Below, one piece after another: positions 1 through 27,924 of a stretch of DNA of 28,120 nucleotides. Source of the stretch: a virus; IMG/VR virus record IMGVR_UViG_3300006919_000315, positions 1 through 28,120 of that record; one strand, 5' to 3'. Every line of letters begins with the position of its first letter. The stretch's first letter is position 1. The notes beneath the pieces are model-generated. The model did not search any database and was not told the DNA's origin. It saw nothing but the letters and a program-made list of their open reading frames with translations. Both the position numbers and the translations under genes were made by a program.

Positions 1-984
1 GCAATCACAGGTCGTGGTGCGGATCTTTTAGTTATTGATGATCCTCATTCTGAACAAGATGCCATGTCACCAAAAGCCTTAGAATCGGCTTACGAGTGGT
101 ACACATCTGGACCGCGACAGCGTTTACAACCAGGCGGAATTATTGTGATAGTAATGACAAGATGGAGCACTAAAGATTTGGTTGGCAAAGTTCTAAATAA
201 ACAAGGCGAAGACCATGCTGATAAATGGGAGGTAGTTGAGTTTCCAGCAATCATGCCAGACTCAGAAGATCCTTTATGGCCAGAGTTTTGGAAAAAAGAT
301 GAATTATTAGGTGTCAAAGCATCCTTACCCATATCTAAATGGAACAGTCAGTGGATGCAAAACCCTACCGCAGAAGAAGGATCTATAGTTAAAAGAGAGT
401 GGTGGAATAGGTGGGAAAACCCAGATATTCCAGATTACTCTTACGTCATACAAAGTTACGATACTGCGTTCTCAAAAAAAGAAACAGCAGATTATTCTGC
501 TATAACGACCTGGGCAATATTCAATAGAGAAGAAGACGCAGATGAAATAATACTACTTGACGCAAAAAGAGTGCGTTGTGACTTTCCAGAGTTGAAACGC
601 ATGGCTTTAGAAGAATATAGATATTGGGAGCCGGATTGTGTTCTTATTGAAGCAAAAGCATCTGGAACACCGCTTACGCATGAACTAAGAAGAATGGGAA
701 TACCTGTTACTGCTTACTCACCAAGTAGAGGTCAAGACAAAATAGCAAGAATGAATAGTGTCGCACCCATGTTTGAGTCTGGTATGGTATGGGCACCAGA
801 GCATGATTTTGCAGAAGAAGTCATAGAAGAAATGGCGTCATTCCCATTTGGAGATTATGATGACTATTGCGATAGTGCTACAATGGCCTTGATGCGTTTC
901 CGACAAGGCGGTTTTGTATCTTTACATGAAGATTACCAAGATGAGGTGCGATTATTAAAAAAGAACAGGACAGTTTATTATTGA
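1..984 (+). CDS. terL: Phage terminase large subunit, C-terminal part (5' end cut by window)
   Basis: This is the DNA-packaging motor and nuclease that fills the prohead through the portal. The frame is open from base 1, so the start and Walker A lie outside the window. The visible part begins with a Walker B strand, LLVIDD (residues 9-14 of the fragment), then PHS. The RNase H-like nuclease domain follows: an acidic SYDTAF strand (Asp about 154), VLIEAKASG (Glu about 217) and the late acidic cluster DYDDYCDSA (Asp about 288 and 291). These fit the three-carboxylate nuclease site of the family. The next gene starts inside its stop codon (TTGA). Adjacency to a portal gene supports the call. 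The remaining doubt is only which terminase subfamily it belongs to. Confidence 0.95.
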   Translation, partial: AITGRGADLLVIDDPHSEQDAMSPKALESAYEWYTSGPRQRLQPGGIIVIVMTRWSTKDLVGKVLNKQGEDHADKWEVVEFPAIMPDSEDPLWPEFWKKDELLGVKASLPISKWNSQWMQNPTAEEGSIVKREWWNRWENPDIPDYSYVIQSYDTAFSKKETADYSAITTWAIFNREEDADEIILLDAKRVRCDFPELKRMALEEYRYWEPDCVLIEAKASGTPLTHELRRMGIPVTAYSPSRGQDKIARMNSVAPMFESGMVWAPEHDFAEEVIEEMASFPFGDYDDYCDSATMALMRFRQGGFVSLHEDYQDEVRLLKKNRTVYY

Positions 985-1157
985 AAATTTATTTAACTAG
1001 GTTTGTTTGGGATGGCAAAGAATATGGCGGACCTAACATACATGCAGAAACCATCGAGATAGCAGAGGCTATTGCAGAACTAAATGGTTTAATTGTAGAG
1101 GGCGAACTAACAGATATAGTTGGAATGGAAAAAGATGAAGCAAGAGTGATACACTAG
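981..1157 (+). CDS. Small conserved-type hypothetical protein, TTG start
   Basis: A 58-residue frame fills the gap between terminase and portal. The only upstream start is TTG at 981, overlapping the terminase stop (TTGA), with AGGA at 967-970 as a weak ribosome site. The product begins KIYLTRFVWDGKEYGGP and continues with an acidic helical segment (AETIEIAEAIAELNG). It has no signal peptide or membrane segment. The coupled start and otherwise gene-tight spacing favour a real gene. I do not recognise a function. A chance frame of this length cannot be fully excluded. Confidence 0.6.
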   Translation: MKIYLTRFVWDGKEYGGPNIHAETIEIAEAIAELNGLIVEGELTDIVGMEKDEARVIH

Positions 1158-1163
1158 GTAATT

Positions 1164-3653
1164 ATGGCGATAGACAAACAATTAGGCACAGAAGATAATC
1201 CAGATGTAAGAGTACAAGGCTCTGCTGTTGAAATACCTCTTGATACCACAAGAGAAGATCAAATAAGAGAAGCTGCGGAAATACTTGTAGAAAATGAAAA
1301 TTTGTTTATTGACGAAGAAATACAAGGCACACAACCGCAAGAAATGGATTTCAATTCTAATCTAGTAGATTTTTTAGGCGAAGACATACTGCAAAGCATT
1401 TCAAACGATTTACTTAGCTCAATCAAAAGCGATAAACAATCTAGATCTGAATGGGAAAAGACCTATACCGATGGCCTTAAATATTTAGGCATGAAGTTTG
1501 ACGATTCTAGGTCGCAACCATTTGAAGGTAGTTCTGGCGTGGTCCATCCTATTTTGGCAGAGGCCGCTACTCAATTCCAAGCACAGGCTTACAAAGAAAT
1601 GTTGCCAGCAAAAGGACCTGTAAAAACAGAAATAGTTGGTGCTCGCACAGTAGAAACAGAAAATCAAGCAGAAAGAGTCCAAGAGTTTATGAACTATTAC
1701 ATTATGAATGTAATGGAAGAGTATGATCCAGAGTTAGATCAGATGTTGTTTTATTTACCATTAGCAGGATCTACATTTAAAAAAGTTTATTTTGATTTTG
1801 TTCTAAATAGAGCAGTTTCTAAGTTTATACCGCCAGAGGATCTTATTGTGCCTTATGAAGCACCAGACATAAGTTCAGCCGAAAGAATTACTCATGCTAT
1901 TAGCATGTCAGCTAATGAGATTAAAAAACAACAACTGTCTGGATTTTACGCAAATGTAGACATAGGTTCTGAAAGTTATTCAGATGATCTCTCTGATATA
2001 GCAGAGGCCATAGATGAAATACAAGGCGTTTCACCATCGTATAAAGAAAATAGGAATAGAACAGTTTATGAAGTACATACTGTTTTGGATATAGAAGGTT
2101 TTGAAGATGTAGACGAGCAAGGTAATCCTACTGGACTTAAACTACCTTACATAGTCACCATTGAAGAGGACTCAGAAAAAGTATTATCTATTCGCAGAAA
2201 TTATTTACCTAATGATCTACTTAAAAATAAAATAAATTATTTTGTGCAATATAAATTTATGCCTGGTCTTGGTTTTTATGGGTTAGGACTGTCGCACATG
2301 ATTGGCGGTCTATCAAAAGCATCGACCTCAATACTAAGGCAGCTTATTGACGCGGGAACATTAGCAAATTTACCAGCTGGTTTTAAAGCTAGAGGTATGA
2401 GAATCCGAGATGAGGATGATCCACTACAACCAGGCGAGTTTAGAGATATAGATACTACAGGCGGATCTTTACGAGAAAACTTAATTCCGTTACCTATTAA
2501 AGAACCTAGTAATGTATTGATGCAATTACTCGGTATATTAGTAGACTCTGGTAAACGATTCGCCGCTATAGCAGACATGAATGTTGGCGACATGAACCAA
2601 GCTATGCCAGTTGGAACTACTGTCGCTTTGCTAGAGCGTGGCACAAAAGTAATGAGTGCCATTCACAAAAGGTTGCATCATTCACAAAAAATTGAATTTG
2701 GCTTGATGTCTAAAGTTTTTGCTGAGTTTTTACCACCTGTTTATACTTTTCAAGTTGGCACAGGACCAAGTGAAATAAAACAACAAGATTTTGATGACAG
2801 AGTAGATATTATTCCTATATCAGATCCTAATATTTTTTCACAAAGTCAAAGAGTTACATTAGCACAAGAGCTTTTACAAATGGTGCAATCTAATCCAGAA
2901 ATACACGGACCGCTTGGTATTTATGAAGCATATCGCAGAATGTATGCTGCTTTGGGTGTCGATAATGTTGAATCATTATTACAACCACCACCAGATATGA
3001 CACCAAGACCAGTAGATGCTGGTACTGAAAACTCTGGACTTTTGATGGGACAACCTGCCCAGGCTTTTCCAGAACAGAATCACCAAGCGCATTTAGAGGC
3101 ACACAAAAGTTTGTTTTTAACCAATATCGTTAGAGAAAGTCCACAAGTGCAAGCCTTAATTATTAGTCATTGCATGCAACATTTACAATTCTTAGCTACT
3201 CAAATGGCAGAAGAACAAATGCCAGAGGAAACAAAACAACAAATGGCTCAGATACAAGCACAAATGCAACAAGTATCACCAGAAGAAGCACAAATGATTA
3301 TGCAACAAATGCAAATGGTCATGGAACAATTTAGCTCTGCAATCATGGCTCAATTAGCTAGTGAGTTTTTACAATCAATAGGAATGAGCAACAGTGAAGA
3401 TCCTTTAGTAGACATTAGAAAACAAGAATTAGATCTAAAAGACAAAGAACTAGATATGGAATCTCAACAATTTGAGGCAAAACAACAGCAAAGAGCACAA
3501 GAAAAAATGCTCGATGCTCAATTACAACAAGAGCGTATGGGTGTGCAAAAAGACATTGCAGATGATAAACTCGAAGTAGCAATCGATAGATTGAAACAAA
3601 ATGCTGATTTGAAATTAATTGAATTAGAAAATAAAATAAGAGGCTTACTATGA
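1164..3653 (+). CDS. Portal protein (P22-like, long form)
   Basis: This is the predicted dodecameric portal at the head vertex, through which DNA enters and leaves and to which the tail attaches. It is 829 residues, in the size range of P22-type portals. The N-terminus is acidic (residues 1-70). The core has portal-like segments such as SSGVVHPILAEAATQFQAQA, YYIMNVMEEYDPELDQML and PLAGSTFKKVYFD. After about residue 660 the protein turns into Gln/Met-rich long helices (MQHLQFLATQMAEEQ, then repeated QQMQ), ending in a charged coiled coil, as expected for a barrel that projects into the capsid. It follows terminase, the usual order. The ATG at 1164 has only AGG at 1156-1158 as a Shine-Dalgarno site. 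The next gene overlaps its stop (ATGA). Confidence 0.9.
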   Translation: MAIDKQLGTEDNPDVRVQGSAVEIPLDTTREDQIREAAEILVENENLFIDEEIQGTQPQEMDFNSNLVDFLGEDILQSISNDLLSSIKSDKQSRSEWEKTYTDGLKYLGMKFDDSRSQPFEGSSGVVHPILAEAATQFQAQAYKEMLPAKGPVKTEIVGARTVETENQAERVQEFMNYYIMNVMEEYDPELDQMLFYLPLAGSTFKKVYFDFVLNRAVSKFIPPEDLIVPYEAPDISSAERITHAISMSANEIKKQQLSGFYANVDIGSESYSDDLSDIAEAIDEIQGVSPSYKENRNRTVYEVHTVLDIEGFEDVDEQGNPTGLKLPYIVTIEEDSEKVLSIRRNYLPNDLLKNKINYFVQYKFMPGLGFYGLGLSHMIGGLSKASTSILRQLIDAGTLANLPAGFKARGMRIRDEDDPLQPGEFRDIDTTGGSLRENLIPLPIKEPSNVLMQLLGILVDSGKRFAAIADMNVGDMNQAMPVGTTVALLERGTKVMSAIHKRLHHSQKIEFGLMSKVFAEFLPPVYTFQVGTGPSEIKQQDFDDRVDIIPISDPNIFSQSQRVTLAQELLQMVQSNPEIHGPLGIYEAYRRMYAALGVDNVESLLQPPPDMTPRPVDAGTENSGLLMGQPAQAFPEQNHQAHLEAHKSLFLTNIVRESPQVQALIISHCMQHLQFLATQMAEEQMPEETKQQMAQIQAQMQQVSPEEAQMIMQQMQMVMEQFSSAIMAQLASEFLQSIGMSNSEDPLVDIRKQELDLKDKELDMESQQFEAKQQQRAQEKMLDAQLQQERMGVQKDIADDKLEVAIDRLKQNADLKLIELENKIRGLL

Positions 3654-3952
3654 CAACATCATATAAATTAGAAGCGATTAAGAAACTTAAAGCTGAAAAA
3701 AAAGCTGAAAGAATCAAAGAAGCCGAGGACTTAAAAGCTGCTCAAGAGGCAGAAGAAAAAAAGCACCAGGCAAATCTTAAAAGAATAGCTAACAAAATGG
3801 CACAAATTGAACAAGGCTTACCTGTAGAAAAGGAAGTTGTTGTGGAAGAAAAGCCAGTTGTTAAAAAAGCTCAAGCTAAAAAGAAAACAGTTTCTAAAAA
3901 ACCAACAAAAAAAGCTCCAGCTAAAAGAGGCAGACCAAAGAAAAAATCGTAA
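3650..3952 (+). CDS. Lysine-rich protein with C-terminal AT-hook
   Basis: The product has 100 residues in two parts. Residues 1-50 form a charged, probably coiled-coil helix rich in Lys, Glu and Ala. Residues 60-100 form a Lys/Ala/Pro tail like a histone H1 tail, ending KRGRPKKKS. RGRP at 93-96 flanked by basic residues is a canonical AT-hook core, which binds the minor groove of AT-rich DNA. Its ATG overlaps the portal stop (ATGA), so translation is probably coupled. The position between portal and co-chaperonin puts it in the head-assembly block. A DNA-binding or condensing role is inference. The lysine richness could alternatively serve RNA or acidic-protein binding. Confidence 0.8.
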   Translation: MTTSYKLEAIKKLKAEKKAERIKEAEDLKAAQEAEEKKHQANLKRIANKMAQIEQGLPVEKEVVVEEKPVVKKAQAKKKTVSKKPTKKAPAKRGRPKKKS

Positions 3953-4135
3953 ATGGACGAAATAGATTTAATGGCTAAAATCAAAAGATTGATTGAAAGC
4001 AGAGAAAAGCAAATACAAGAAACTTTAATGTCTGGCGGACTAAAAGATATAGAACATTATAAATATTTGCAAGGAGAGCTTTCTGCTTTATACTATATTG
4101 CAAACGAGATAAGCGATATAGGAAAAGATATATGA
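3953..4135 (+). CDS. Small helical hypothetical protein
   Basis: The product has 60 residues and looks almost wholly helical: DLMAKIKRLIESREKQIQET, then MSGGLKDIEHYKYLQGELSA. It lacks Cys, a signal peptide and a membrane segment. The ATG follows directly after the upstream stop (TAAATG) and the end overlaps the next ATG (ATGA), so it sits inside one translationally coupled run. It resembles small proteins often found just after portal genes in marine phages. A role in head assembly is inferred from position alone. Confidence 0.75.
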   Translation: MDEIDLMAKIKRLIESREKQIQETLMSGGLKDIEHYKYLQGELSALYYIANEISDIGKDI

Positions 4136-4575
4136 GTTCAGAAGCAGTAGAAAACAACATAATGGCAAAAAAAGTGGCAGAGGCCTATGTGGATCCCGAA
4201 GAAGTGGTTTTAAATCCAGAAAAGTTAGATGCTTCAATATTAGAACGTATGCCACAACCAACAGGGTGGAGAATGTTAGTGCTACCCTACGCTGGTAAAG
4301 CAAAAACAGAAGGCGGTATTATACTTACAAAAGAAACAAAAGATCGTGAGGCTCTAGCAAGTATAGTAGCTTATGTTGTCAAAAAAGGACCACAATGCTA
4401 TAACGATAAGGCTAGATTTGGAGATGAACCTTGGTGTGAAGAAAAACAATGGGTTTTAATTGGACGTTACTCCGGTTCAAGATTTAAACTTGAAGATGGT
4501 GCGGAGGTTAGAATCATCAATGATGATGAAGTAATAGCCACCATTCTCAATCCAGATGACATAGTGAGCTTATGA
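4132..4575 (+). CDS. groES: GroES-like co-chaperonin (viral Cpn10)
   Basis: This is a predicted lid for the host GroEL chamber, as T4 gp31 is for capsid folding. It has 147 residues: about 40 unlike the family, then a Cpn10-like body. Residues 43-52 (PTGWRMLVLP) match the first strand. The mobile loop KTEGGIILT (about 58-66) has the GGI(I/V)L motif that docks to GroEL. The C-terminal half (WVLIGRYSGSRFKL, then a strand ending PDDIVSL) matches the GroES 'GD.V.f..y.G..... DIlavv' pattern. A 20-residue insertion (about 86-106) replaces part of the roof region. No GroEL is visible, so host GroEL is probably used. It lies just upstream of the scaffold-like and capsid genes. Confidence 0.8.
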   Translation: MSSEAVENNIMAKKVAEAYVDPEEVVLNPEKLDASILERMPQPTGWRMLVLPYAGKAKTEGGIILTKETKDREALASIVAYVVKKGPQCYNDKARFGDEPWCEEKQWVLIGRYSGSRFKLEDGAEVRIINDDEVIATILNPDDIVSL

Positions 4576-5495
4576 CAACAGAAAACGAAGTAAAAGAAGT
4601 TCAGCAACCAGAGGTTGATGAAATTGAGGTAGAAGTGACTGAAACCGAAGCGTCGTCCGATGCTTCAAATGAAGACGAGTTAGAAAATTATACGAAAAGT
4701 GTTTCTAAACGTATTAATAAACTTAACGCGCGTAATCGTGCAACAGAAGAAAGAGCTGCAAAATTAGAAGCTGCTTTGCAACAAAGAGAAGCAGAGGTTC
4801 AAAATTACTATCAACATGCAGTGCAAGCACAACAAACTATACTGCAAAAAGAAGAAGAGGCAGTTGAGGCTAAAGAGAGAGAAGCAAATGACCTTTACAA
4901 AAGAGCTCACGCTGCTGGTGATGCAGATCTTATGTCAAAAGCCGACAGTTTAAAATCTGAGGTTTCTATACAAAAAGAAAAAATTAGAGTTGCAAAACAA
5001 AAACAGGAGCAAACAGCACAACAGTCGCAATATGTTCCTTATCAACAACAACAACCGCAACAAGTACAACAAGCTCAACCAGAACCAAAGCCAACAGAAC
5101 AGGCTTTGAGTTGGCAAAAACAAAATCAATGGTATGGTCAAGATGCTGAACCAACACAATATGCGTATTTCACGCATGTAAATTTGGTTCAAGAAGGCTA
5201 TGAACCAGACTCAGAAGAGTATTATGATGAGTTAAATTCAAGAGTTTACAAAGTTTATCCGGGTTTACAATCCGATAATGCTGAACAAAGTGAGGGCAGG
5301 CCCGCTGTGCAAAGAGTCGCCTCCGCTTCCGTAGGAAGTCGGCAAAAAACACAAGGCAAAAAGAACGGCGTATCTTTCACAAAAAGTGAAGTCGAAACGC
5401 TCCGTGGGATTAAACCGCATGGCATGGCAGATGACGTATGGTTGAAATCCGTTGCTAAAGAAAAACAAAAAATAGCTAACAGGGAGGCAAAATGA
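4572..5495 (+). CDS. Putative scaffolding protein (acidic, coiled-coil, Gln-rich)
   Basis: The product has 307 residues. The N-terminus is very acidic (residues 1-45). Residues 45-150 form a long charged coiled coil (SKRINKLNARNRATEERAAK and following heptads). Residues 150-185 are Gln/Pro-rich. The C-terminal part is basic and ends in a Lys-rich helix. This acidic-coil-basic layout and the position before the capsid gene fit a head scaffolding protein, which binds capsid protein through a basic C-terminal end. No protease motif is seen. The ATG overlaps the GroES stop. Family membership is not proven by sequence motif, so the call rests on composition and position. Confidence 0.65.
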   Translation: MTTENEVKEVQQPEVDEIEVEVTETEASSDASNEDELENYTKSVSKRINKLNARNRATEERAAKLEAALQQREAEVQNYYQHAVQAQQTILQKEEEAVEAKEREANDLYKRAHAAGDADLMSKADSLKSEVSIQKEKIRVAKQKQEQTAQQSQYVPYQQQQPQQVQQAQPEPKPTEQALSWQKQNQWYGQDAEPTQYAYFTHVNLVQEGYEPDSEEYYDELNSRVYKVYPGLQSDNAEQSEGRPAVQRVASASVGSRQKTQGKKNGVSFTKSEVETLRGIKPHGMADDVWLKSVAKEKQKIANREAK

Positions 5496-5971
5496 CAGAA
5501 GCTAATAATGAAGGAATACAATCCAGAAAATCTCGTGAATCCGAGAATCACGCTAAACAAACTCGAAGACAACCATGGAGGCCAGTAAGAAAACTTGAAA
5601 CTCCTCCGGCACCAGAAGGGTACGAATATCGTTGGATAAGAGAATCCATGTTGGGCCAAGAGGATAAAGCAAATGTGGCAAGAAGAATCAGAGAGGGTTG
5701 GGAACTCGTAAGAGGAACTGACTTACCTGCTGAATATTCTTACCCAACTGCTGATACAGGAAGACACGCTGGCTTAGTATATAGCGAAGGCTTACTATTG
5801 GCGAAAATACCTACAGAAACTCGTGAGGAGCGTAATGCTTATTATGAGGATCAAGCTAGAATGAAGAAGGAAGCATTGGACAATAATATGTTTAATGAAT
5901 CCGCAAAAGATAGCAGATATGTAAAGTATGACTCCGATAGAAAGTCTAATGTTACTTTTGGAAAAAAGTAA
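5492..5971 (+). CDS. Conserved head-module hypothetical protein
   Basis: The product has 159 residues. The N-terminal 40 are basic and disordered, followed by a compact core with EGYEYRWIRESMLGQEDKAN and RRIREGWELVR, then a helical, polar C-terminus. The 'YRWIR...N...R.REGWE.VR' pattern recurs in small proteins just upstream of capsid genes in marine phages, and their function is unknown to me. A good Shine-Dalgarno GGGAGG precedes the ATG, which overlaps the previous stop (ATGA). It has no signal peptide or membrane segment. It could be a minor head or scaffold-associated protein. Confidence 0.75.
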   Translation: MTEANNEGIQSRKSRESENHAKQTRRQPWRPVRKLETPPAPEGYEYRWIRESMLGQEDKANVARRIREGWELVRGTDLPAEYSYPTADTGRHAGLVYSEGLLLAKIPTETREERNAYYEDQARMKKEALDNNMFNESAKDSRYVKYDSDRKSNVTFGKK

Positions 5972-5993
5972 TTAACGATTAGGAGAAAATCTT

Positions 5994-6581
5994 ATGGCAA
6001 ATAAAGATGCCGCATTTGGTTTAAAACCTGTTCGTGAGATGGGCGGAGCACCTTATTCTGGTGGTCAGTCAAGATACAGAATCGCAAGTGGAGCTACAAC
6101 TCCAATATTTCAAGGCGATCTTGTAACTCAACTGACAGCTGGCGTAATTGGCAGACACACCGCAACTGGAACTGTTCCTATTGTCGGAGTGTTTAACGGA
6201 GTTTCATACACCGATCCAACCACGGGCGAACAAGTTTTTAACAACTATTATCCTGGCAGTATTGCTGCTTCGGATATTATTGCAAGCGTCATAGATGATC
6301 CAAATATTGTGTTTGAAGTGCAAGCAGATGATACCTTCCCGGTAGCAGATCTGTTTGGTAACTTTGACATTGTTGATGGTTCACCTGTTGGCGATACTAA
6401 GTCTGGAAGATCCAATCTTGAGCTAGATGTAACAACTGGTGCAACAACAGCTACGTTACCGCTCAAATGTATTGACATCTCCCAGGATCCCGATAACGAC
6501 GATGTTGCATCGTCAAACACCAATGTTCTTTGTGTGATTCAAAACCACATCATGGGACAAAAAGGTGCTGGTTTAGCATAA
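5994..6581 (+). CDS. Putative capsid-associated or decoration protein
   Basis: The product has 195 residues and is predicted to be mainly beta: ANKDAAFGLKPVREMGGAPY at the N-terminus, then alternating Gly/Thr/Val strands. It starts with AGGAG before ATG 5994 and lies 15 bases before the capsid gene. Size, beta richness and position next to the capsid gene suggest a virion surface or cement protein, but there is no diagnostic motif. Related proteins beginning 'MAN.DAAFGL.P' are common beside capsid genes in marine phages; that is recalled, not searched. Confidence 0.65.
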   Translation: MANKDAAFGLKPVREMGGAPYSGGQSRYRIASGATTPIFQGDLVTQLTAGVIGRHTATGTVPIVGVFNGVSYTDPTTGEQVFNNYYPGSIAASDIIASVIDDPNIVFEVQADDTFPVADLFGNFDIVDGSPVGDTKSGRSNLELDVTTGATTATLPLKCIDISQDPDNDDVASSNTNVLCVIQNHIMGQKGAGLA

Positions 6582-6596
6582 GCGAGGTAAATTAAT

Positions 6597-7514
6597 ATGG
6601 CTATTTCAAGAGCACAATTAGCGAAAGAGCTAGAGCCTGGTCTAAACGCACTTTTCGGTATGTCCTATGACCAATATGACAGAGAGTATGAAGATATTTT
6701 TGTCATTGAGGATTCAAATAGAGCATTTGAAGAAGAGGTGTTAGTTACCGGCTTTGGTTCCGCACCAGTAAAATCAGAAGGTCAAGGAGTTATTTTTGAC
6801 AGCGCATCTGAAAGTTACAGCGCAAGATATACCCACGATACAGTGGCGTTAGCTTTCGCTCTTACAGAAGAAGCAGTTGAAGATAATCTTTATGACAGTC
6901 TGGGTAAACGATATGTTAAAGCATTAGCAAAATCTATGGCTAACACTAAGGAAGTCAAAGGTGCCGATGTTTTAAACAATGCTTTCTCATCTAGCTTCAC
7001 AGGAGGCGATGGAGTATCACTTATTAACAGCTCACACCCACTTGCAGGTGGAGGTACAGCTGCTAACAGAGCTACTACTATGGCTGACTTGAATGAGGCT
7101 TCATTAGAAGACGCATTAATTGATATATCTACATTTACAGATGACAGAGGTTTAACTATTTCTGTGCAAGCTGACAAACTTGTGGTTCCACCACAATTAG
7201 TGTTTGTTGCTGACAGAATATTACAGTCAAACCAAAGATCTGGCACAGCTGATAATGACATCAACGCAATCAAAAACACAGGTGTTTTACCTGGTGGTTA
7301 CGTTGTAAACCATTATCTATCTGATCCAGATGCTTTCTTTATAATGACATCTGTGAACGCTATGGGCGAAGGTCTAAAAATGTTCCAAAGATCTCCAATG
7401 GAGACATCAATGGAACCAGACTTCTCTACAGGCAACATTAGATATAAAGCAAGAGAAAGATATTCATTTGGCTTCTCCGACTGGAGAGGTATCTATGGAT
7501 CTCAAGGTGCATAA
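6597..7514 (+). CDS. Major capsid protein (HK97-fold type)
   Basis: The product has 305 residues. Segments such as VALAFALTEEAVEDNLYDSL and YVKALAKSMANTKEVKGADV match the long spine-helix region of Mu gpT-like or HK97-fold capsid proteins. LVVPPQLVFVADRILQS and a Gly-rich P-domain follow, then a final beta strand set ending DWRGIYGSQGA. GAGG precedes ATG 6597. A strong terminator 42 bases after the stop fits a highly expressed gene. No linked protease or long propeptide is visible, so maturation may be protease-free. Confidence rests on size, fold-like pattern and position. Confidence 0.87.
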   Translation: MAISRAQLAKELEPGLNALFGMSYDQYDREYEDIFVIEDSNRAFEEEVLVTGFGSAPVKSEGQGVIFDSASESYSARYTHDTVALAFALTEEAVEDNLYDSLGKRYVKALAKSMANTKEVKGADVLNNAFSSSFTGGDGVSLINSSHPLAGGGTAANRATTMADLNEASLEDALIDISTFTDDRGLTISVQADKLVVPPQLVFVADRILQSNQRSGTADNDINAIKNTGVLPGGYVVNHYLSDPDAFFIMTSVNAMGEGLKMFQRSPMETSMEPDFSTGNIRYKARERYSFGFSDWRGIYGSQGA

Positions 7515-7523
7515 TTTGAAGTC

Positions 7524-7550
7524 GTAATACACTTTATTACTCAGTATTAC
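7524..7550 (+). repeat. Perfect 7-base inverted repeat before the capsid terminator
   Basis: GTAATAC (7524-7530) and GTATTAC (7544-7550) are exact reverse complements around a 13-base loop. This could form a weak AT-rich hairpin in the mRNA just upstream of the terminator. An alternative shorter pairing, GTAAT with ATTAC at 7536-7540, competes. It may protect the capsid mRNA 3' end or be chance. Confidence 0.4.
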
Positions 7551-7555
7551 AATTT

Positions 7556-7582
7556 AAAGGGCCTTAATTGGCCCTTTTTTTT
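7556..7582 (+). terminator. Rho-independent terminator after the capsid gene
   Basis: The stem AAAGGGCC pairs with GGCCC plus the following T residues, around the loop TTAATT. A run of eight T (7575-7582) follows. The five G-C pairs and long T tract make it the strongest hairpin in the first 10 kb. It closes the capsid transcript and separates it from the promoter at 7609. Confidence 0.9.
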
Positions 7583-7608
7583 GGTCGCAATTAATTAAAA
7601 ATAATGTA

Positions 7609-7657
7609 TGTAAATAGTTGCACAAAGTTGCAATATTTAGTATATTAACTATGTGGG
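7609..7657 (+). promoter_or_regulatory. Promoter/operator element, copy 1 (paired AGTTGCA boxes)
   Basis: This intergenic element recurs at 27545-27593, ungapped, with 39 of 49 bases identical. AGTTGCA occurs at 7616-7622 and again at 7626-7632, exactly 10 bases apart, so both boxes face the same side of the helix. A sigma70-like promoter fits: TTGCAC (7618-7623), a 17-base spacer, then TATATT (7641-7646), with transcription starting near 7653. The second box lies within the spacer, where a bound protein would block or alter polymerase binding. CTATGTGGG (7649-7657) is perfectly conserved near the start point. The downstream gene starts at ATG 7689 behind GGAGG. Promoter assignment is inference; the repeat itself is seen. 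Confidence 0.8.
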
Positions 7658-7688
7658 AAATGAAATTAACAACAAAAACGGAGGCAAA

Positions 7689-8102
7689 ATGATAACAGTA
7701 TTTCATGCAAACAAGTTTGGTGATAACACCAAGGGTTACACAAAAGTAGCGGAGGTTGATGTCGATACGATAAACGAGGCTTTTCAATTAACCAACAATA
7801 TTAACGGCTCTTGGTCAAGAGGTCCAGAGTTTGAGTTTGACGGCGATAAGATTGTTAATGGCGACTATGATCCAAGAATTAAGGTCACTACAGATCTTGT
7901 AATTAGCAAGAGAACTGGCGAGCCTATGGGTTTAAGATCTACTTCTAGTGGTGACGTTATTTTTGACAGCAGCAAGTATTGGTTCTTAGTTCCAATGGGT
8001 GCTGGCAGAACTGGTCCAATTTACAAAACTCATGGTGACACAGTTGCCATAGACAACTTTGATATTAACGGCTTTATTTACAACGAAAAGGAGGTTGCGT
8101 AA
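7689..8102 (+). CDS. Hypothetical protein, first gene of the island operon
   Basis: The product has 137 residues. A GTG further upstream (7653) is in frame but lies at the predicted transcription start and has no ribosome site. ATG 7689 has GGAGG at 7680-7684, so I choose it. The protein is polar and beta-rich: MITVFHANKFGDNTKGYTKV at the start, then GGC-rich turns and YWFLVPMGAGRTGPIYKTHG. It has no signal peptide, membrane segment or recognised motif. It is preceded by the paired-box promoter and overlaps the next gene (TAATG). A regulatory or metabolic early protein is possible, but I recognise no function. Confidence 0.85.
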   Translation: MITVFHANKFGDNTKGYTKVAEVDVDTINEAFQLTNNINGSWSRGPEFEFDGDKIVNGDYDPRIKVTTDLVISKRTGEPMGLRSTSSGDVIFDSSKYWFLVPMGAGRTGPIYKTHGDTVAIDNFDINGFIYNEKEVA

Positions 8103-8623
8103 TGATAGAGAATATAATTTACAATAAAGACTCAGCTGACAACGCAGTTGTGGTTGATGATTACCCTTGGGGTTATAAACTTAGAACCAAGAGAAAGTAT
8201 TGGATTGAAACAACTAAAAGAGGTGACAGACTTTGTTACCAGACTTTGAATCCAAAAACTGACAAGTGGTGCGCTGTTAAGAAAAGCACTTACAGCGGTA
8301 TCATGGTTCTTTATGAAAATGAAGATGGACATATTAAGACCATTGGATTAGATCCTCAGTGGTCTAAAGAAGAAGGACTTGCAAATTTTCTTAATTATGT
8401 TGATGAAACTAAGTTGACTGATGCACAAAGAGCTAAGATTTGTGAAACCAAGACAATTCATCATTGTCAGAAACTTGTAAAGGTTGAGTGTGAAATCAAT
8501 CCTCAAAGAACTCCAGAGGAACAAGCAAAACACGATGCTGAACAAAAAGAAATTAAAAACAAACTAAACAACTATGCTAATCATGTGTACAACAAATGTT
8601 TAGTAAAAAATGGTATAGCATGA
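8102..8623 (+). CDS. Hypothetical protein, second gene of the island operon
   Basis: The product has 173 residues. The ATG overlaps the preceding stop (TAATG) and has a strong AAGGAGG (8088-8094). The N-terminal half is beta-rich with many aromatics (YPWGYKLRTKRKYWIETTK, YSGIMVLYENEDGHI). The C-terminal half is helical and charged, with TPEEQAKHDAEQKEIKNKL. Five Cys are scattered without a zinc pattern. No membrane segment is seen. It is co-transcribed with the 137-residue protein and the HAD enzyme. Function unknown; a small DNA- or RNA-related accessory protein is only a guess. Confidence 0.85.
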   Translation: MIENIIYNKDSADNAVVVDDYPWGYKLRTKRKYWIETTKRGDRLCYQTLNPKTDKWCAVKKSTYSGIMVLYENEDGHIKTIGLDPQWSKEEGLANFLNYVDETKLTDAQRAKICETKTIHHCQKLVKVECEINPQRTPEEQAKHDAEQKEIKNKLNNYANHVYNKCLVKNGIA

Positions 8624-9132
8624 CACAAATAACTAAAATATTTGTTGATATGGACGGAGTGCTCGCTGATTTCGTGAGAGGAGTCGAGGGACCTAAATAC
8701 TTAAATGGTCCCTTGGTCAGCGAGCAAACCTATGACTCAAGAAAGATAGAGCTCAGTAACAGAGGTTTATTTAGAGATCTACCGATTATGCCAGGCATGC
8801 TTAAACTCATTAACTATATCAAAGAGTCTGGCATTGATTGGGAAATACTCACAGCTTCTGGCTCTTTAAACAGAACAGTAGTGACTAACGACAAAATCTA
8901 TTGGATAAGAAAACATGTAGATCCAAAAGTAATTATCACAGCAACCATAAAGGGCGAAGATAAAGCTGCTTTTGCAAGGCCTAGTCATGTTCTAATAGAT
9001 GACAGAAAATCAAATATCAAAGCCTGGACACAGGCTGGTGGTATCGGTGTTTTGCATAGAACCGCAGACGATACTATAGATCAACTAAAATCATATAAGC
9101 AACCTCCTGTTGCAGAGATACTCGCTCAGTAG
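8620..9132 (+). CDS. HAD-family 5'(3')-deoxyribonucleotidase-like hydrolase
   Basis: The product has 170 residues from ATG 8620, which overlaps the preceding stop (ATGA). An ATG at 8596 would add eight residues but lies deeper inside the upstream gene. Motif I is FVDMDGVLADF, with nucleophile Asp10 and acid/base Asp12. Motif II is ILTASGS (Thr79 or Ser80). A Lys near 112-115 could be motif III, and VLIDDRKSNI (Asp127, Asp128) is motif IV. The DxDGVLADF form is typical of the NT5C/YorS-like deoxyribonucleotidases, which dephosphorylate dNMPs. It could adjust the nucleotide pool early in infection. Substrate is inferred from motif type only. Confidence 0.85.
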   Translation: MTQITKIFVDMDGVLADFVRGVEGPKYLNGPLVSEQTYDSRKIELSNRGLFRDLPIMPGMLKLINYIKESGIDWEILTASGSLNRTVVTNDKIYWIRKHVDPKVIITATIKGEDKAAFARPSHVLIDDRKSNIKAWTQAGGIGVLHRTADDTIDQLKSYKQPPVAEILAQ

Positions 9133-9158
9133 TATTATCTAAGATGTAGAACTAATTG

Positions 9159-9179
9159 TTGCGGGCATGGTGTCCGCAA
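9159..9179 (+). other. Intergenic hairpin without T tract
   Basis: TTGCGG (9159-9164) pairs exactly with CCGCAA (9174-9179), extended by a G-T pair, around a seven-base loop. No T run follows, so it is not a typical intrinsic terminator. It lies between the end of the island operon and the next structural gene. It could be an RNA processing site or a weak stop. A promoter in this gap is also possible, but its boxes are poor. Confidence 0.4.
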
Positions 9180-9203
9180 TGGCTAATTTATAGGAGGCTG
9201 ATT

Positions 9204-9914
9204 ATGACTACACACTTTACTTCGGGTGTTACCAATGTTTCTTCTGACGGAACATTAGGTAAATTAAAAGCTCCCGCACCACACAAGTATCATTCATACT
9301 TTAATGATTTTGATACTTATTTAGCGTCCGATTGGACAATCACAACAACTGAGGATGGCACAGGATCCGCGACAGAGGCTTTAGCCGATGGCGATGGTGG
9401 TGTTTTGTTAGTAACAAATGCTGCTGGCGATAATGACCATGACTTTTTTCAGTTGGTAAAAGAAGGCTTTAAATATGAAAGCGGCAAACAGTTAGCGTTT
9501 CACGTTAGATTTAAAACTAACGATGCAACACAATCTGATATTGTTGCTGGTTTACAGCTTACTGATACTACACCATTAGATGTAACAGATGGTATCTTCT
9601 TTTTAAAATCAGATGGAGCTGCAACTATTAGCTTTATCGTTGAAAAAGATAGCACACAATCTACATTGACTTTGCCTAACTCATTGGCAGATGATACTTT
9701 TATGACTTTAGGTTTTGTTTATGATCCTAAAGATCAAAAGTTTCATGTGTATCAAAACAATGTATTAGCTGGCACAGTGGTTAGCACAAATGCTCCAGAT
9801 AACGAAGAACTAACAGTTTCTTTCGGTATTCAAAATGGCGCTGCTGCTGCAAAAACCTTGAGCGTAGATTACATTGGTGCACACAAAGAACGTACAGCTG
9901 TAACTGAGCTGTAA
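9204..9914 (+). CDS. Concanavalin A/jelly-roll-like virion protein
   Basis: The product has 236 residues. An in-frame start upstream at 9156 is rejected because AGGAGG (9192-9197) stands seven bases before ATG 9204. The protein is beta-rich throughout. Segments such as FNDFDTYLASDWTITTTEDG, QLAFHVRFKTN, GIFFLKSDGAATISFIVEKD and FVYDPKDQKFHVYQNNVLAG read as strands of a lectin/glucanase-like jelly roll. Such proteins are often head decoration or surface proteins in marine phages. Position after the capsid block fits this. Sugar-binding is possible but unproven. Confidence 0.7.
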   Translation: MTTHFTSGVTNVSSDGTLGKLKAPAPHKYHSYFNDFDTYLASDWTITTTEDGTGSATEALADGDGGVLLVTNAAGDNDHDFFQLVKEGFKYESGKQLAFHVRFKTNDATQSDIVAGLQLTDTTPLDVTDGIFFLKSDGAATISFIVEKDSTQSTLTLPNSLADDTFMTLGFVYDPKDQKFHVYQNNVLAGTVVSTNAPDNEELTVSFGIQNGAAAAKTLSVDYIGAHKERTAVTEL

Positions 9915-9924
9915 GGAGTAGATA

Positions 9925-10329
9925 ATGGCTGATACAGTAACAAGTCAGACTATCCAAGATGGTGAAAAAACAGCAATACTGAAATTCACCAACGAAAGCG
10001 ATGGCACCGGCGAGGCTTCCGTAAAAAAAGTTGATGTTTCTGCTCTAAGCAAAGACAGCAGAGGAAGATCTTGCAGTTCTGTATCTATATCAAGAATATA
10101 TTGGGCCTGTAGAGGCATGGGCGTTGACATTGAGTTTGACGCTAGTACCAATGTATTAGCGATACCATTACCTGCGGATAGCACAGGTGACGAATACTAT
10201 GATTTATTTACTGGTATTCCAAACAATGCAGGATCCGGGGTGACGGGTGATATAGACTTCACTACTGTTGCACACAGTAACGGCGATGCTTATTCGATTA
10301 TCTTGGTTTTAACTAAGAACTACTCATAA
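9925..10329 (+). CDS. Small beta-rich putative structural protein
   Basis: The product has 134 residues, starting at ATG 9925 behind AAGGAG. It begins ADTVTSQTIQDGEKTAILKF, reads as alternating strands, and ends IILVLTKNYS. A central segment, SISRIYWACRGMGVDIEF, is the most conserved-looking part. It is followed at once by a terminator, which suggests high expression, as for a virion protein. No motif identifies its exact role; decoration or head-tail joining are possible. Confidence 0.7.
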   Translation: MADTVTSQTIQDGEKTAILKFTNESDGTGEASVKKVDVSALSKDSRGRSCSSVSISRIYWACRGMGVDIEFDASTNVLAIPLPADSTGDEYYDLFTGIPNNAGSGVTGDIDFTTVAHSNGDAYSIILVLTKNYS

Positions 10330-10336
10330 ATACTAG

Positions 10337-10360
10337 GGCGGTCTTACGGCCGCCTTTTTT
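10337..10360 (+). terminator. Rho-independent terminator
   Basis: The stem GGCGGTC (10337-10343) pairs with GGCCGCC (10348-10354), with one G-T pair, around the loop TTAC. Six T follow. It is GC-rich against an AT-rich background and therefore strong. The next gene's ATG lies only four bases after the T run, so that gene needs readthrough or an unseen promoter. Confidence 0.9.
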
Positions 10361-10363
10361 GTT

Positions 10364-10660
10364 ATGGCATTAAAGAGTAAAAAAGATTCAAGATTAGCAA
10401 GAGCTGGAGTTAGTGGTTTTAATAAACCAAAAAGAACTCCAAAACATCCGACTAAATCGCATGTTGTAGTTGCTAAACAAGGTGACAAAATAAAAACAAT
10501 TAGGTTTGGACAGCAAGGAGCTAAAACAGCTGGTAAACCAAAGGCAGGCGAGTCCCGCAAAACAAAAATGAAAAGAAAATCATTTAAAGCTAGACATCGT
10601 AAAAATATACAAAAGGGAAAAATGTCGGCAGCATATTGGGCTGACAAGGTGAAATGGTAA
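10364..10660 (+). CDS. Small basic hypothetical protein (RFGQQG...AAYWADKVKW type)
   Basis: The product has 98 residues and is very basic. The sequence reads GFNKPKRTPKHPTKSHVVVA, then IKTIRFGQQGAKTAG, and ends KMSAAYWADKVKW. This combination is a small family I recognise from many marine phages and some giant viruses, without a known function. The ATG lies directly after the terminator and has no Shine-Dalgarno sequence; the next in-frame ATG (10568) would delete the conserved part. High charge suggests nucleic acid contact, possibly inside the capsid. It starts a cassette of five basic genes. Confidence 0.8.
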   Translation: MALKSKKDSRLARAGVSGFNKPKRTPKHPTKSHVVVAKQGDKIKTIRFGQQGAKTAGKPKAGESRKTKMKRKSFKARHRKNIQKGKMSAAYWADKVKW

Positions 10661-11717: not shown

Positions 11718-11720
11718 ATT

Positions 11721-12011
11721 ATGAAAAATTCTAAATATATGGCTAAAGGCGGTGCAATGAAAGGCACAAAATATATGTCTATGGGTGGAGCAGCAAAATC
11801 AGAAATGAAAGCTAATCCAGGCATGGGTAAAATGCCTAAATCAGTTGTAGCAGCACTTGAAGGTGTCGGTACTAGAGCACAAGGTCAAGCTAATGTTTTG
11901 AAAGGTGCAAAAGGCATGGCTAAAGGCGGTGCTATGAAAGGTACAAAATACAAAGCAGGTGGTGGCGCTATGAAAGGTACAAAATATAGAGCTAAAGGCG
12001 GAAAGGTTTAA
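11721..12011 (+). CDS. Repeat protein of KGGAMKGTKY units
   Basis: The product has 96 residues, made largely of short repeats: KYMAKGGAMKGTKYM, then MAKGGAMKGTKYKAGGGAMK and GTKYRAKGGKV. It is rich in Lys, Gly, Met and Ala and is probably disordered. AGGAG (11709-11713) precedes the ATG. The middle (NPGMGKMPKSVVAALEGV) is more ordered. No known function. The GG-hydrophobic pattern recurs in nearby genes and in the large ejection-type protein at 18038. Confidence 0.75.
   Translation: MKNSKYMAKGGAMKGTKYMSMGGAAKSEMKANPGMGKMPKSVVAALEGVGTRAQGQANVLKGAKGMAKGGAMKGTKYKAGGGAMKGTKYRAKGGKV
11742..11987 (+). repeat. Three 33-base coding repeats
   Basis: Units at 11742-11774, 11919-11951 and 11955-11987 encode AKGGAMKGTKY (AGGGAMKGTKY in the third). 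They differ at a few, mostly third, codon positions. The last two are in tandem with a period of 36 bases; the first is separated by a unique segment. Third-position drift means selection on the peptide, not the DNA. Confidence 0.85.
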
Positions 12012-12031
12012 CACCTTGTATATTAAATTAA

Positions 12032-26058: not shown

Positions 26059-26310
26059 ATGGCCCGCAACTACGCGCAGAAATATGCAAACTATCATTCT
26101 CGACCAGAGCAAATAAAAAGAAGATCCTCACGCAACAAAGCAAGACGCCTGGCTATCAAGGCAGGCAAGGCAAAAGTCGGCGATGGCAAAGACATTCATC
26201 ATAAAGACGGCAACCCTTTGAATAATAAAAATGGTAATTTAAGATCTATGAATAAAAGCAAAAATAGATCTTTTGCTCGGACTAAAACGGCTCGAAAGAA
26301 AAGAGTTTAG
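26059..26310 (+). CDS. Small HNH-like protein lacking the final histidine
   Basis: The product has 83 residues and is very basic. The core DIHHKDGNPLNNKNGNL (45-61) matches the HNH pattern of phage homing nucleases (H47 H48, then N55 N56 and N60). The third His, normally near 'THSEN', is replaced by MNKSKN (64-69). The rest is Lys/Arg-rich. It could be a small nicking enzyme with altered chemistry, or a DNA-binding relic. It starts five bases after the ejection gene, without a clear Shine-Dalgarno site, and its stop overlaps the convergent minus-strand gene. Confidence 0.75.
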   Translation: MARNYAQKYANYHSRPEQIKRRSSRNKARRLAIKAGKAKVGDGKDIHHKDGNPLNNKNGNLRSMNKSKNRSFARTKTARKKRV

Positions 26311-26810: not shown

Positions 26811-27524
26811 ATGTATCAACTAAAAAATTACTTACTGAGCATGCAGTCGCATTGGATGATTAACCATACGACATATAAGGCTGTCCAAGACACTTTGCCA
26901 GACATAGTAAAGTTTAAAGGTCAGCAGGGTATGGAGGATATGGGCAAAACTCCAATACACAAAGTTATAAAAAAGATACATCCAGAAATATATCGAGTGC
27001 CTTTGTTTCGCCGCAAATTTTGTTCTATGTTAATCAACGAAATTGAACACATGAAAAAAGAAATACCATTTGAGGCTAATACAGATGAGGACCAGCTGCG
27101 CCAAATACCAGAGATTGTATTGCGTGAACATGTCCCGGAGTTATATCGCAGCATGTGGTTTGTGGTACAAAGCGTACTCAACCCTATGTTCAATGCGATA
27201 TGGCAAAGAGATTGTAAAGATCCGTCAACGATACAAATAGCTAACTATAATCTCAAAGATAAGAAACAAGGTGCTTGGCACCATGACGAAAGCGCTGATA
27301 TTTCGGTGGTTGTGCCGCTCAATACTGGTAAGTATAAAGGCGGTGGCACCGCGTTTCACAACTACGGCGAAATAAGTCCGTTGCCAACGGGCCATGCGTT
27401 GATTTTCCCAAGTTTCATCAATCTGCATAAGGGCCTGCCAGTCGAAAGCGGTGATAGATACCTGTTGGTTTTTTGGCTACATGATCGTCAAAGAATCATA
27501 GAATTGTACGAAAACTACCTCTAA
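26811..27524 (+). CDS. 2-oxoglutarate/Fe(II)-dependent oxygenase
   Basis: The product has 237 residues. The C-terminal half has the double-stranded beta helix pattern: iron ligands H157 and D159 in GAWHHDES, the distal H206 in FINLHKGLP, and R216 in GDRYLLVFWL, which should bind 2-oxoglutarate. The N-terminal 130 residues are helical and unlike known motifs. Enzymes of this family hydroxylate proteins or nucleic-acid bases; the substrate here is unknown. Such genes are common in marine phages. The gene seems to be expressed from its own promoter, lies divergent from the ribbon-helix-helix gene, and has no ribosome site. The start ATG 26811 is supported by the -10 placement. Confidence 0.85.
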   Translation: MYQLKNYLLSMQSHWMINHTTYKAVQDTLPDIVKFKGQQGMEDMGKTPIHKVIKKIHPEIYRVPLFRRKFCSMLINEIEHMKKEIPFEANTDEDQLRQIPEIVLREHVPELYRSMWFVVQSVLNPMFNAIWQRDCKDPSTIQIANYNLKDKKQGAWHHDESADISVVVPLNTGKYKGGGTAFHNYGEISPLPTGHALIFPSFINLHKGLPVESGDRYLLVFWLHDRQRIIELYENYL

Positions 27525-27544
27525 AAATAACTGTTATTATTGTC

Positions 27545-27593
27545 TGTAAATAGTTGCATATAGTTGCAACTTATGGCATTATATCTATGTGGG
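27545..27593 (+). promoter_or_regulatory. Promoter/operator element, copy 2 (paired AGTTGCA boxes)
   Basis: This is the second copy of the element at 7609-7657. AGTTGCA lies at 27552-27558 and 27562-27568, again 10 bases apart. The second box extends to a perfect palindrome, AGTTGCAACT (27562-27571). A promoter can be read as TTGCAT (27554-27559), a 17-base spacer, then CATTAT (27577-27582). CTATGTGGG (27585-27593) is conserved exactly, at the same distance as in copy 1. The gene downstream starts at ATG 27628 behind AAGGAGGG. Confidence 0.8.
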
Positions 27594-27627
27594 AATTTTA
27601 ATTGAAAACAAAAAAAAGGAGGGTGTA

Positions 27628-27924
27628 ATGGTTGATGAAAAAATATTAACAAAAACAATTAGCAATGGCACTGATTGTTGTGATTATAGGTTGGTCAAAT
27701 ACAAAATAAATGGCAAGTGGACAAAGCCATTGCTAGAACATAACCAAGAAAAAGGCACAAATGGTGATTGGGACGGCTGGCACATGACTGAGTTGTTTGA
27801 GCACTTTAGTCATGGTGATATAGCCTACATGAATAAAAAGTTTGGTATGCAGTTTGGTATTGGTTGTTATGACGAAGAGTTAATACAAACAGACGAACTT
27901 GTTGAGTTCAAGGAGGGTAAATAA
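27628..27924 (+). CDS. Hypothetical protein, first gene of the right-end operon
   Basis: The product has 98 residues from ATG 27628, which has AAGGAGGG (27617-27624). An in-frame GTG at 27589 lies at the predicted transcription start and is rejected. It has an aromatic, polar composition: YRLVKYKINGKWTKPLLEHN, GDWDGWHMTELFEHFSHGDI and KKFGMQFGIGCYDEELIQTD. An adjacent CC pair (TDCCDY) is present. No membrane segment or known motif. It overlaps the next gene by one base (TAATG), with a second strong AAGGAGGG. This layout mirrors the island operon at 7689. Confidence 0.85.
   Translation: MVDEKILTKTISNGTDCCDYRLVKYKINGKWTKPLLEHNQEKGTNGDWDGWHMTELFEHFSHGDIAYMNKKFGMQFGIGCYDEELIQTDELVEFKEGK

Follow-up and report, generated by a model that had tools for sequence, protein, structure and literature searches.

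The virus record IMGVR_UViG_3300006919_000315 of the IMG/VR collection (28,120 bases; this whole stretch is referred to as the window) carries nearly all of its genes on the plus strand, among them terminase, portal, a GroES-like gene, capsid and tail genes. Here, we describe an island of three small genes, A, B and C, which is located between the capsid gene and the next structural gene, termed gene D, and which a preliminary description had portrayed as an early-type operon and possibly an accessory cassette (moron). Terminase, portal and tail genes were named by position and by comparison with annotated relatives, and the window capsid protein was identified by profile searches (phrog_371, Pfam Phage_capsid_4). 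Among named phages, capsid identity is 57-63% to DSL-LC04, the Pelagibacter phages HTVC023P and HTVC027P (58% in HTVC027P) and Roseobacter phage CRP-902, and the phage group is marine and podovirus-like. A megablast of window positions 6500-10500 against named phages gave zero DNA matches.

All window features described here lie on the plus strand. The left border of the island is an intrinsic terminator (7556-7582), a hairpin with a T-run that starts 42 nt past the capsid stop. It is followed by a sigma-70-like promoter (7618-7657) composed of TTGCAC (7618-7623), a spacer of 17 nt, TATATT (7641-7646) and TATGTGGG (7650-7657), a conserved sequence that sits around the expected transcription start. 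A direct repeat, AGTTGCA present twice, begins at 7616. The A-rich 5' leader of the first gene (7658-7688) holds a GGAGG ribosome site at 7680-7684 and leads into genes A (137 amino acids, 7689-8102), B (173 amino acids, 8102-8623) and C (8620-9132), after which gene D (9204-9914) forms the right border. At the A/B junction, AAGGAGGTTGCGTAATG (8088-8104) comprises the end of A (KEVA and stop), an AAGGAGG ribosome site and the start of B.

Profile matches identify gene C as a predicted 5'(3')-deoxyribonucleotidase of the HAD/NT5C type, which would hydrolyse deoxynucleotides. It scored 35.6 bits against Pfam NT5C (cut-off 24.8) and reached an E-value of 2.7e-33 against phrog_2643 (5'-3' deoxyribonucleotidase); its VDMDGVLADF stretch, which contains the DxD motif, aligns with the solved 5'(3')-deoxyribonucleotidase 4l57. 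Distant relatives of gene C are common in phages (113 records, all below 60% identity). In the case of genes A and B, searches gave zero Pfam, PHROG or NCBIfam family matches. In the viral contig collection gene A was found at 26 loci and gene B at 68, and a relative of gene B was not confirmed in any bacterial or archaeal genome contig searched. Ubiquitin-like matches to gene A were rejected (E 0.8 or worse). The only named-phage relatives of gene A are found in the Methylophilales phages Melnitz (H37-H40), as a weak match (38% over 62%, E 5e-7). These phages also hold distant relatives of gene C, and an exchange with, or a host link to, marine Methylophilales phages is possible.

Thus, the strong terminator on the left and the nucleotide-metabolism gene of the preliminary description are both present, and the promoter predicted for the island is supported by its conservation and fixed spacing, as described below. 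Regarding the strong GGAGG ribosome sites, these exist for A (GGAGG) and B (AAGGAGG) but not for C, which overlaps B via ATGA and has no Shine-Dalgarno sequence of its own. The claim that all of these features contrast with the structural genes does not hold, since gene D is also preceded by GGAGG, a promoter-like site and a leader hairpin. Two other lines of evidence were dropped. A bare consensus promoter scan found 18 sites where 27.6 were expected by chance, and a foreign origin could not be deduced from base composition, with 39.9, 34.3 and 39.6% G+C in A, B and C and a mean of 39.2% (standard deviation 2.7) in 28 structural genes.

For comparison, we collected 59 non-redundant loci, each with capsid and gene D, the capsid scan covering the best 80 of at least 600 loci. 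Because the set was partly recruited via A, B or the promoter, its counts of these three are inflated; the 30 unique loci recruited via capsid alone are free of this inflation and therefore serve as the fair sample. A close clade was defined by a capsid at least 88% identical (35 loci). A terminator early in the gap between capsid and gene D recurs in 57 of the 59 loci, compared to 0.25% in shuffled sequence, and the two exceptions (L061 and L062) have shorter T-runs. The gap measures 90-171 nt in 15 loci and 500-2558 nt in 44. In the capsid-recruited loci this site, in the following called slot 1, is empty in 15 of 30, with gene D adjoining the capsid gene, and holds C in five, B in two and A in one. 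The three genes are consequently not a constant companion of the capsid gene, and the island is an accessory operon. In the close clade, the slot is filled in all 35 loci (C in 32, B in 21, A in nine), the first slot gene begins 171-181 nt past the capsid stop in most occupied loci, and exactly A, B and C together are found only in the window, L219 and L085. As the slot is always filled there and C is kept in 32 loci, the close clade has a permanent slot whose content changes and not a moron that is gained and lost as a whole. Of the moron proposed in the preliminary description, the accessory nature thus stands, whereas the close clade keeps the slot and swaps what is in it.

Named phages show a similar range. 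HTVC023P, DSL-LC04 and CRP-902 look empty, with the next gene about 130-155 nt past the capsid gene; one or two small genes are in place in HTVC027P and 023Pt_psg01; and Caulobacter phage GB2A carries, precisely between capsid and gene D, a gene annotated as a homing endonuclease. For this reason, the site can be regarded as a general insertion place of the group. In HTVC027P, for which an infection time course is published (PMC12753301), gp60 and gp61 directly follow the capsid gene gp59, and the slot-type promoter was not seen in the stretch examined. The endonuclease of GB2A, together with an HNH gene at window position 26059, could suggest that homing endonucleases or another mobile element bring the cassette in. 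We regard this as very improbable, since the slots of close relatives did not contain a recognisable gene of this type.

The same promoter is found a second time at the right end of the window. This copy (27554-27593; TTGCAT, 17 nt, CATTAT, TATGTGGG) precedes genes R1 (27628-27924) and R2 (27924 to the window end), and the small genes that come next in relatives form a variable chain. The two regions share a 90-nt pair (7589-7678 and 27525-27614, 74% identical), which spans promoter and leader. We refer to the second site as slot 2. Its set comprised 26 unique loci, of which L298 and L329 were dropped owing to another context after their oxygenase gene, leaving 24. The promoter lies about 105 nt past the capsid stop in slot 1 and about 30 nt past a 2OG-Fe(II) oxygenase gene in slot 2. 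When lengths of 39-44 nt were allowed, the promoter pattern had 43 exact matches in the viral collection, all of them 42 nt long. Allowing up to three mismatches in 22 records, the promoter was detected in 10 (14 sites) and a reversed control pattern in none. A looser signature was present in 31 of 33 occupied close slot-1 loci and in 24 of 24 slot-2 loci, versus 1.3% of shuffled stretches, and in 55/55 loci the second base of the -10 element is A and the sixth is T. In six contigs and the window, the full signature was found at 12 sites, all 12 within slot 1 or slot 2. Altogether, the likeness in layout and shared element to the right-end operon, already pointed out in the preliminary description, goes deeper than claimed there: promoter, kind of content and gene families are shared. 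The two 10-bp-spaced AGTTGCA repeats were also considered as an operator co-varying between both slots of a given genome; this idea was set aside because in G003 and G012 the repeat is found in slot 2, whereas slot 1 lacks it in this form.

The oxygenase gene directly before slot 2 in the window (26811-27524) matches phrog_61 (E 1.2e-25), and more oxygenase-like genes were seen by eye in relatives, e.g. at the right end of G002. In the relatives G001 and G002 the slot-2 operon heads toward a reverse-strand gene block, whose products we read from the sequences as an exonuclease, an oxygenase and an SSB-like protein; what looks like a primase-helicase gene lies farther on. This position, along with the promoter type, suggests that the slot operons are probably expressed early. 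The alternative would be a late or constitutive operon under an ordinary sigma-70 promoter, with genes acting in head assembly or lysis. The promoter-like site of the structural gene D has indeed the same -35 core (TTGCA, 17 nt). On the other hand, the same promoter and shared genes lie at the right end beside the replication block, and structural families were absent among 78 representatives of the cargo families, so that we consider a late or constitutive operon unlikely.

To describe the content of the slots, open reading frames (ORFs) were called mechanically, which misplaced the start of C in several loci including the window. This gave 143 ORFs in the slot-1 gaps and 93 ORFs in slot 2 (24 loci), the slot-2 lists ending at the first long reverse gene. 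They form 89 cargo families, of which 39 were found in slot 1 only, 39 in slot 2 only and 11 in both. The closest cross-slot pairs are B (97%), K16 (93%) and K14 and K11 (92% each). At the DNA level, the cross-slot blocks span about one gene with its junctions. L204 and L150 share 163 nt at 94%, corresponding to gene K11 and both of its junctions; G002 and L150 have 405 nt in common around K24; and the stretch common to G012 and L217 is exactly gene K9. In L117, gene B is found in slot 2; there, a stretch of 864 nt with the promoter, K16 and B is 88% identical to slot 1 of L145. A comparison inside slot 1 is provided by the window and L118, whose capsids are 97% and whose D proteins are 99% identical. 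These two match at gap positions 1-175 and again from 583 on, so that gene A alone has been replaced between them.

The ends of such homology were then located relative to gene starts, using 491 pairs and excluding L026 and L055. They fell in the interval from -25 to +15 nt around a gene start in 73/142, 70/160, 110/139 and 36/43 places, compared to 23, 24, 32 and 12 in the largest of 200 random sets; because the pairs are not independent, these counts are descriptive. Taken together, the comparisons suggest that slot genes are replaced, added and moved singly, both within and between slots. This bears on the simplest alternative, a classical moron: a cassette complete in itself, promoter included, which entered between capsid and gene D a single time and has since been passed on as a block. 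The independent promoter and the empty sites in relatives fit such a cassette, as does the close clade, where C is the last gene in 32 of 35 loci and the slot is never empty. However, the content differs gene by gene among phages whose capsid and D proteins are 97-99% identical, 11 families move between the two slots, and the cassette has no terminator of its own in the window. A block inheritance is therefore disfavoured by the single-gene replacements, and we judge it quite unlikely. As to the terminator, none with a solid T-run was found between C and gene D in the window, where there is only the hairpin of the gene D leader followed by CTAATTTATA. The cassettes of L026 and L055 do end in a terminator. 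In these two (L026 5489-7336, L055 gap 151-1986) slot 1 consists of one 616-amino acid helicase-like gene, as judged by eye, and slot 1 of L006/L007 contains a second promoter-like copy and a second terminator.

Numerous internal gene starts have a sequence in common. At these starts AAGGAGGTKGCRTA-ATG recurs, and the upstream protein ends in KEVA; the sequence supplies a full Shine-Dalgarno sequence, and stop and start overlap by one base. With up to two mismatches, the junction was found at 53 of 164 internal starts and in 42 distinct family pairs (29 upstream and 24 downstream families). With up to four mismatches, it was found at none of the 32 structural starts in the window. In G013, G002, G001 and G003, all eight junction occurrences before a start codon lie in the slots. 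An explanation without recombination would be that AAGGAGGTKGCRTA-ATG is only a strong ribosome site, which arose repeatedly through selection for translational coupling. In favour of this, AAGGAGGT is the full complement of the 16S 3' end, and numerous contigs of other phages contain the pattern as well (at least 119 stretches). As a perfect Shine-Dalgarno sequence could arise repeatedly, the spacer behind it makes the better test. Among starts with GGAG, GCRTA directly precedes 51 of 118 internal starts, 1 of 53 first-gene starts and none of 140 starts outside the slots. Its absence from all 140 outside starts and from 52 of the 53 first slot genes, as well as the ending of homology blocks at junctions, speaks against a mere ribosome site, which we consider possible but not the probable explanation.

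Considering these observations as a whole, our preferred interpretation is that the island represents slot 1 of a two-slot accessory regulon in which single genes are exchanged at junctions. Based on sequence comparison, we would assign this a probability of roughly 70%. Several observations weigh against it or limit its extent. None of the 35 close relatives has an empty slot, so that gain or loss of the whole cassette must be old. The divergent start of the replication block in G001 and G002 has another sigma-70-like promoter, one without TATGTGRG, and since the replication genes there use this other type, the shared slot promoter is not a general early promoter in this phage group. Some breaks lie away from gene starts, as the edges also cluster elsewhere: of the 160 left block edges in slot 1, 62 lie 450-530 nt downstream of a gene start, for the most part where C ends ahead of gene D, and about 20 right block edges are found 90-120 nt before the first gene, just past the terminator. 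In addition, the structure models of A and B are poor (predicted local distance difference test, pLDDT, of 64 and 60), and three Foldseek searches with them gave zero matches at E 0.001 or better. Finally, few of the 78 cargo representatives matched any family (seven PHROGs and seven Pfam).

Among these, matches to a single representative include NT5C, DUF2958, LPD29, Transglut_core3, DUF4296 and a RusA-like resolvase family, and one representative weakly matches the restriction alleviation protein Lar (E 0.008). DUF2958 and LPD29 occur in phages and mobile elements, in the context of avoiding restriction, and counter-defence or host takeover is the usual expectation for such genes. PADLOC, which models defence and not anti-defence systems, matched none of the 78 representatives. 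Slot genes may counter host defences or adjust host metabolism.

The right border shows how the structural genes may continue past the cassette. Gene D has a promoter-like site (9110-9138; TTGCAG, 17 nt, TATTAT) that overlaps the end of C, and its -10 element is conserved in relatives, including those with an empty slot. The leader RNA predicted downstream (62 nt, 9142-9203) contains a hairpin (9158-9180) and a short hairpin holding the ribosome site; in relatives the leader was found at, for example, 18756-18818 of L222, 8280-8342 of L219 and 6956-7003 of L062. From 33 distinct sequences 21 leaders were aligned, leaving out eight near-duplicates and L035, L061, L062 and L073. The two helices comprise 13 pairs, and 99.6% of the 263 cells are paired. 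Double changes number 75 (26.8 after shuffling), and the covariation score reaches 0.734 (0.233 after shuffling). Sliding the helix partner by 1-3 columns lowers pairing to 58% or less. RNAalifold finds the first helix unaided, and 8 of its 9 pairs covary. A covariance model run on 48 sources, L035 and L061 not being among them, detected nine places at E below 0.001, at most one per genome and each before gene D, and recovered L062 and L073, neither of which had been used to build it. As a point against the structure, the leader of L035 alone does not fold into the gene D hairpin. Within 7400-9400 of the window, Rfam gave two sub-threshold matches only, and the leader obtained no meaningful score. 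As the ribosome site lies in the second helix, this helix may control translation of gene D, and the leader is thus a candidate translational control element of a virion protein. Moreover, because gene D has its own promoter-like site and leader, a cassette can precede it without cutting it off. Eight loci (L012, L014, L059, L060, L070, L074, L076 and L080) have a different N-terminus of gene D and another conserved leader, whose elements (AGCTTGATGAGG, a short hairpin, TTTCCATTAA and AAGGAGTTCATA) were not seen in full at all of these loci.

Some features elsewhere in the genomes should be added. A GroES-like co-chaperonin gene (4132-4575) lies between portal and capsid in the window and is annotated in named relatives too, and a small Gly/Lys-rich gene (11719-12022) holds imperfect internal repeats (KGTKYMAKGGAM). 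In G002 (reverse complement, 1-8800), genes judged by eye to be CsgG-like, curlin-like, FecR-like and adenylate-cyclase-like lie to the left of the terminase. For HTVC023P-type pelagiphages, a viral curli region that includes FecR and cyclase has been reported (PMC9599517).

In the open-access literature searched, no description of the slot, the promoter or the junction was found. The system was compared with known ones. Morons are accessory transcription units of tailed phages with their own promoter. The island shares with them the accessory nature, the separate promoter and the location between two genes which adjoin each other in relatives; it differs in that content is shuffled gene by gene, two sites stand under one promoter type, the cassette lacks its own terminator in the window and G+C is not deviant. 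In the PeSL mobile regulatory cassettes of T4-type phages, early promoters and short shared sequences are tied to the shuffling of small uncharacterised genes (PMC4503421). The link between short shared sequences and small-gene shuffling is common to both systems. A shuffled PeSL unit, however, typically has a promoter and a stem-loop of its own, whereas here several genes in a row usually depend on one promoter, and what they share is a sequence for translational joining. The start-associated sequence (SAS) of cluster K mycobacteriophages is a short repeat with a Shine-Dalgarno core that is found just before non-structural starts only, with the consensus GGGATAGGAGCCC (PMC3203893). Like SAS, the junction lies a few nt before starts and avoids the structural ones of the window. 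Unlike SAS, its consensus is AAGGAGGTKGCRTA and not GGGATAGGAGCCC, it encodes the last residues and the stop of the upstream gene, and it is tied to two promoter-defined exchanging slots. In the nin region of lambdoid phages, small genes overlap one another in rows, and their boundaries have similar sequences, which have been proposed to favour exchange; these are different phages, and a second slot under the same promoter is not known there. Overall, the system differs from each known family tested in at least one defining property (an own terminator, a promoter per unit, the SAS consensus). By analogy, the slot would work like a moron slot combined with an SAS-like start signal, and it recalls PeSL shuffling and lambdoid boundary sequences. 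In archaeal viruses, many small genes share one conserved regulatory sequence, and an anti-defence function was predicted from this shared element (PMC11065993). That study is the closest precedent for finding genes via the present promoter; it concerns archaeal viruses and archaeal promoters.

Mechanistically, capsid transcription would be predicted to stop at the conserved terminator, after which the conserved sigma-70-like promoter would start a separate operon of small, translationally linked genes, while the promoter-like site and leader of gene D would allow the structural units to be read on with or without a cassette. The other operon, at the right genome end, is headed by the same promoter, and host RNA polymerase would transcribe both slots, probably early. 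Single genes have been replaced or added in either operon and shifted from one slot to the other. The breaks lie at gene starts, where unrelated genes are joined by a recurring short junction composed of a Shine-Dalgarno sequence, a GCRTA spacer and a stop codon that overlaps the start. Owing to the uniform promoter, leader and junctions, an incoming gene would be expressed at once, and the same sequences would offer short homology for recombination. A more far-reaching version, which we put forward tentatively and with the odds rather against it, is that two slots under one private promoter, with the junction also serving as recombination handle, permit a plug-in trade of probably counter-defence genes. 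If this were true, phage populations would trade accessory genes within and between genomes, and promoter and junction could be used to find such genes from sequence alone.

In conclusion, the locus shows how a phage may carry host-facing genes within its most conserved structural block while leaving this block undisturbed, namely because of the terminator on the left, the promoter of the cassette itself and the independent start of gene D on the right. Since the sequence directly reveals which unit was exchanged, where its borders lie and which slot donated it, phage mosaicism becomes testable gene by gene. Furthermore, promoter and junction provide a sequence handle on dozens of small marine-phage genes, which are candidates for counter-defence or host takeover.

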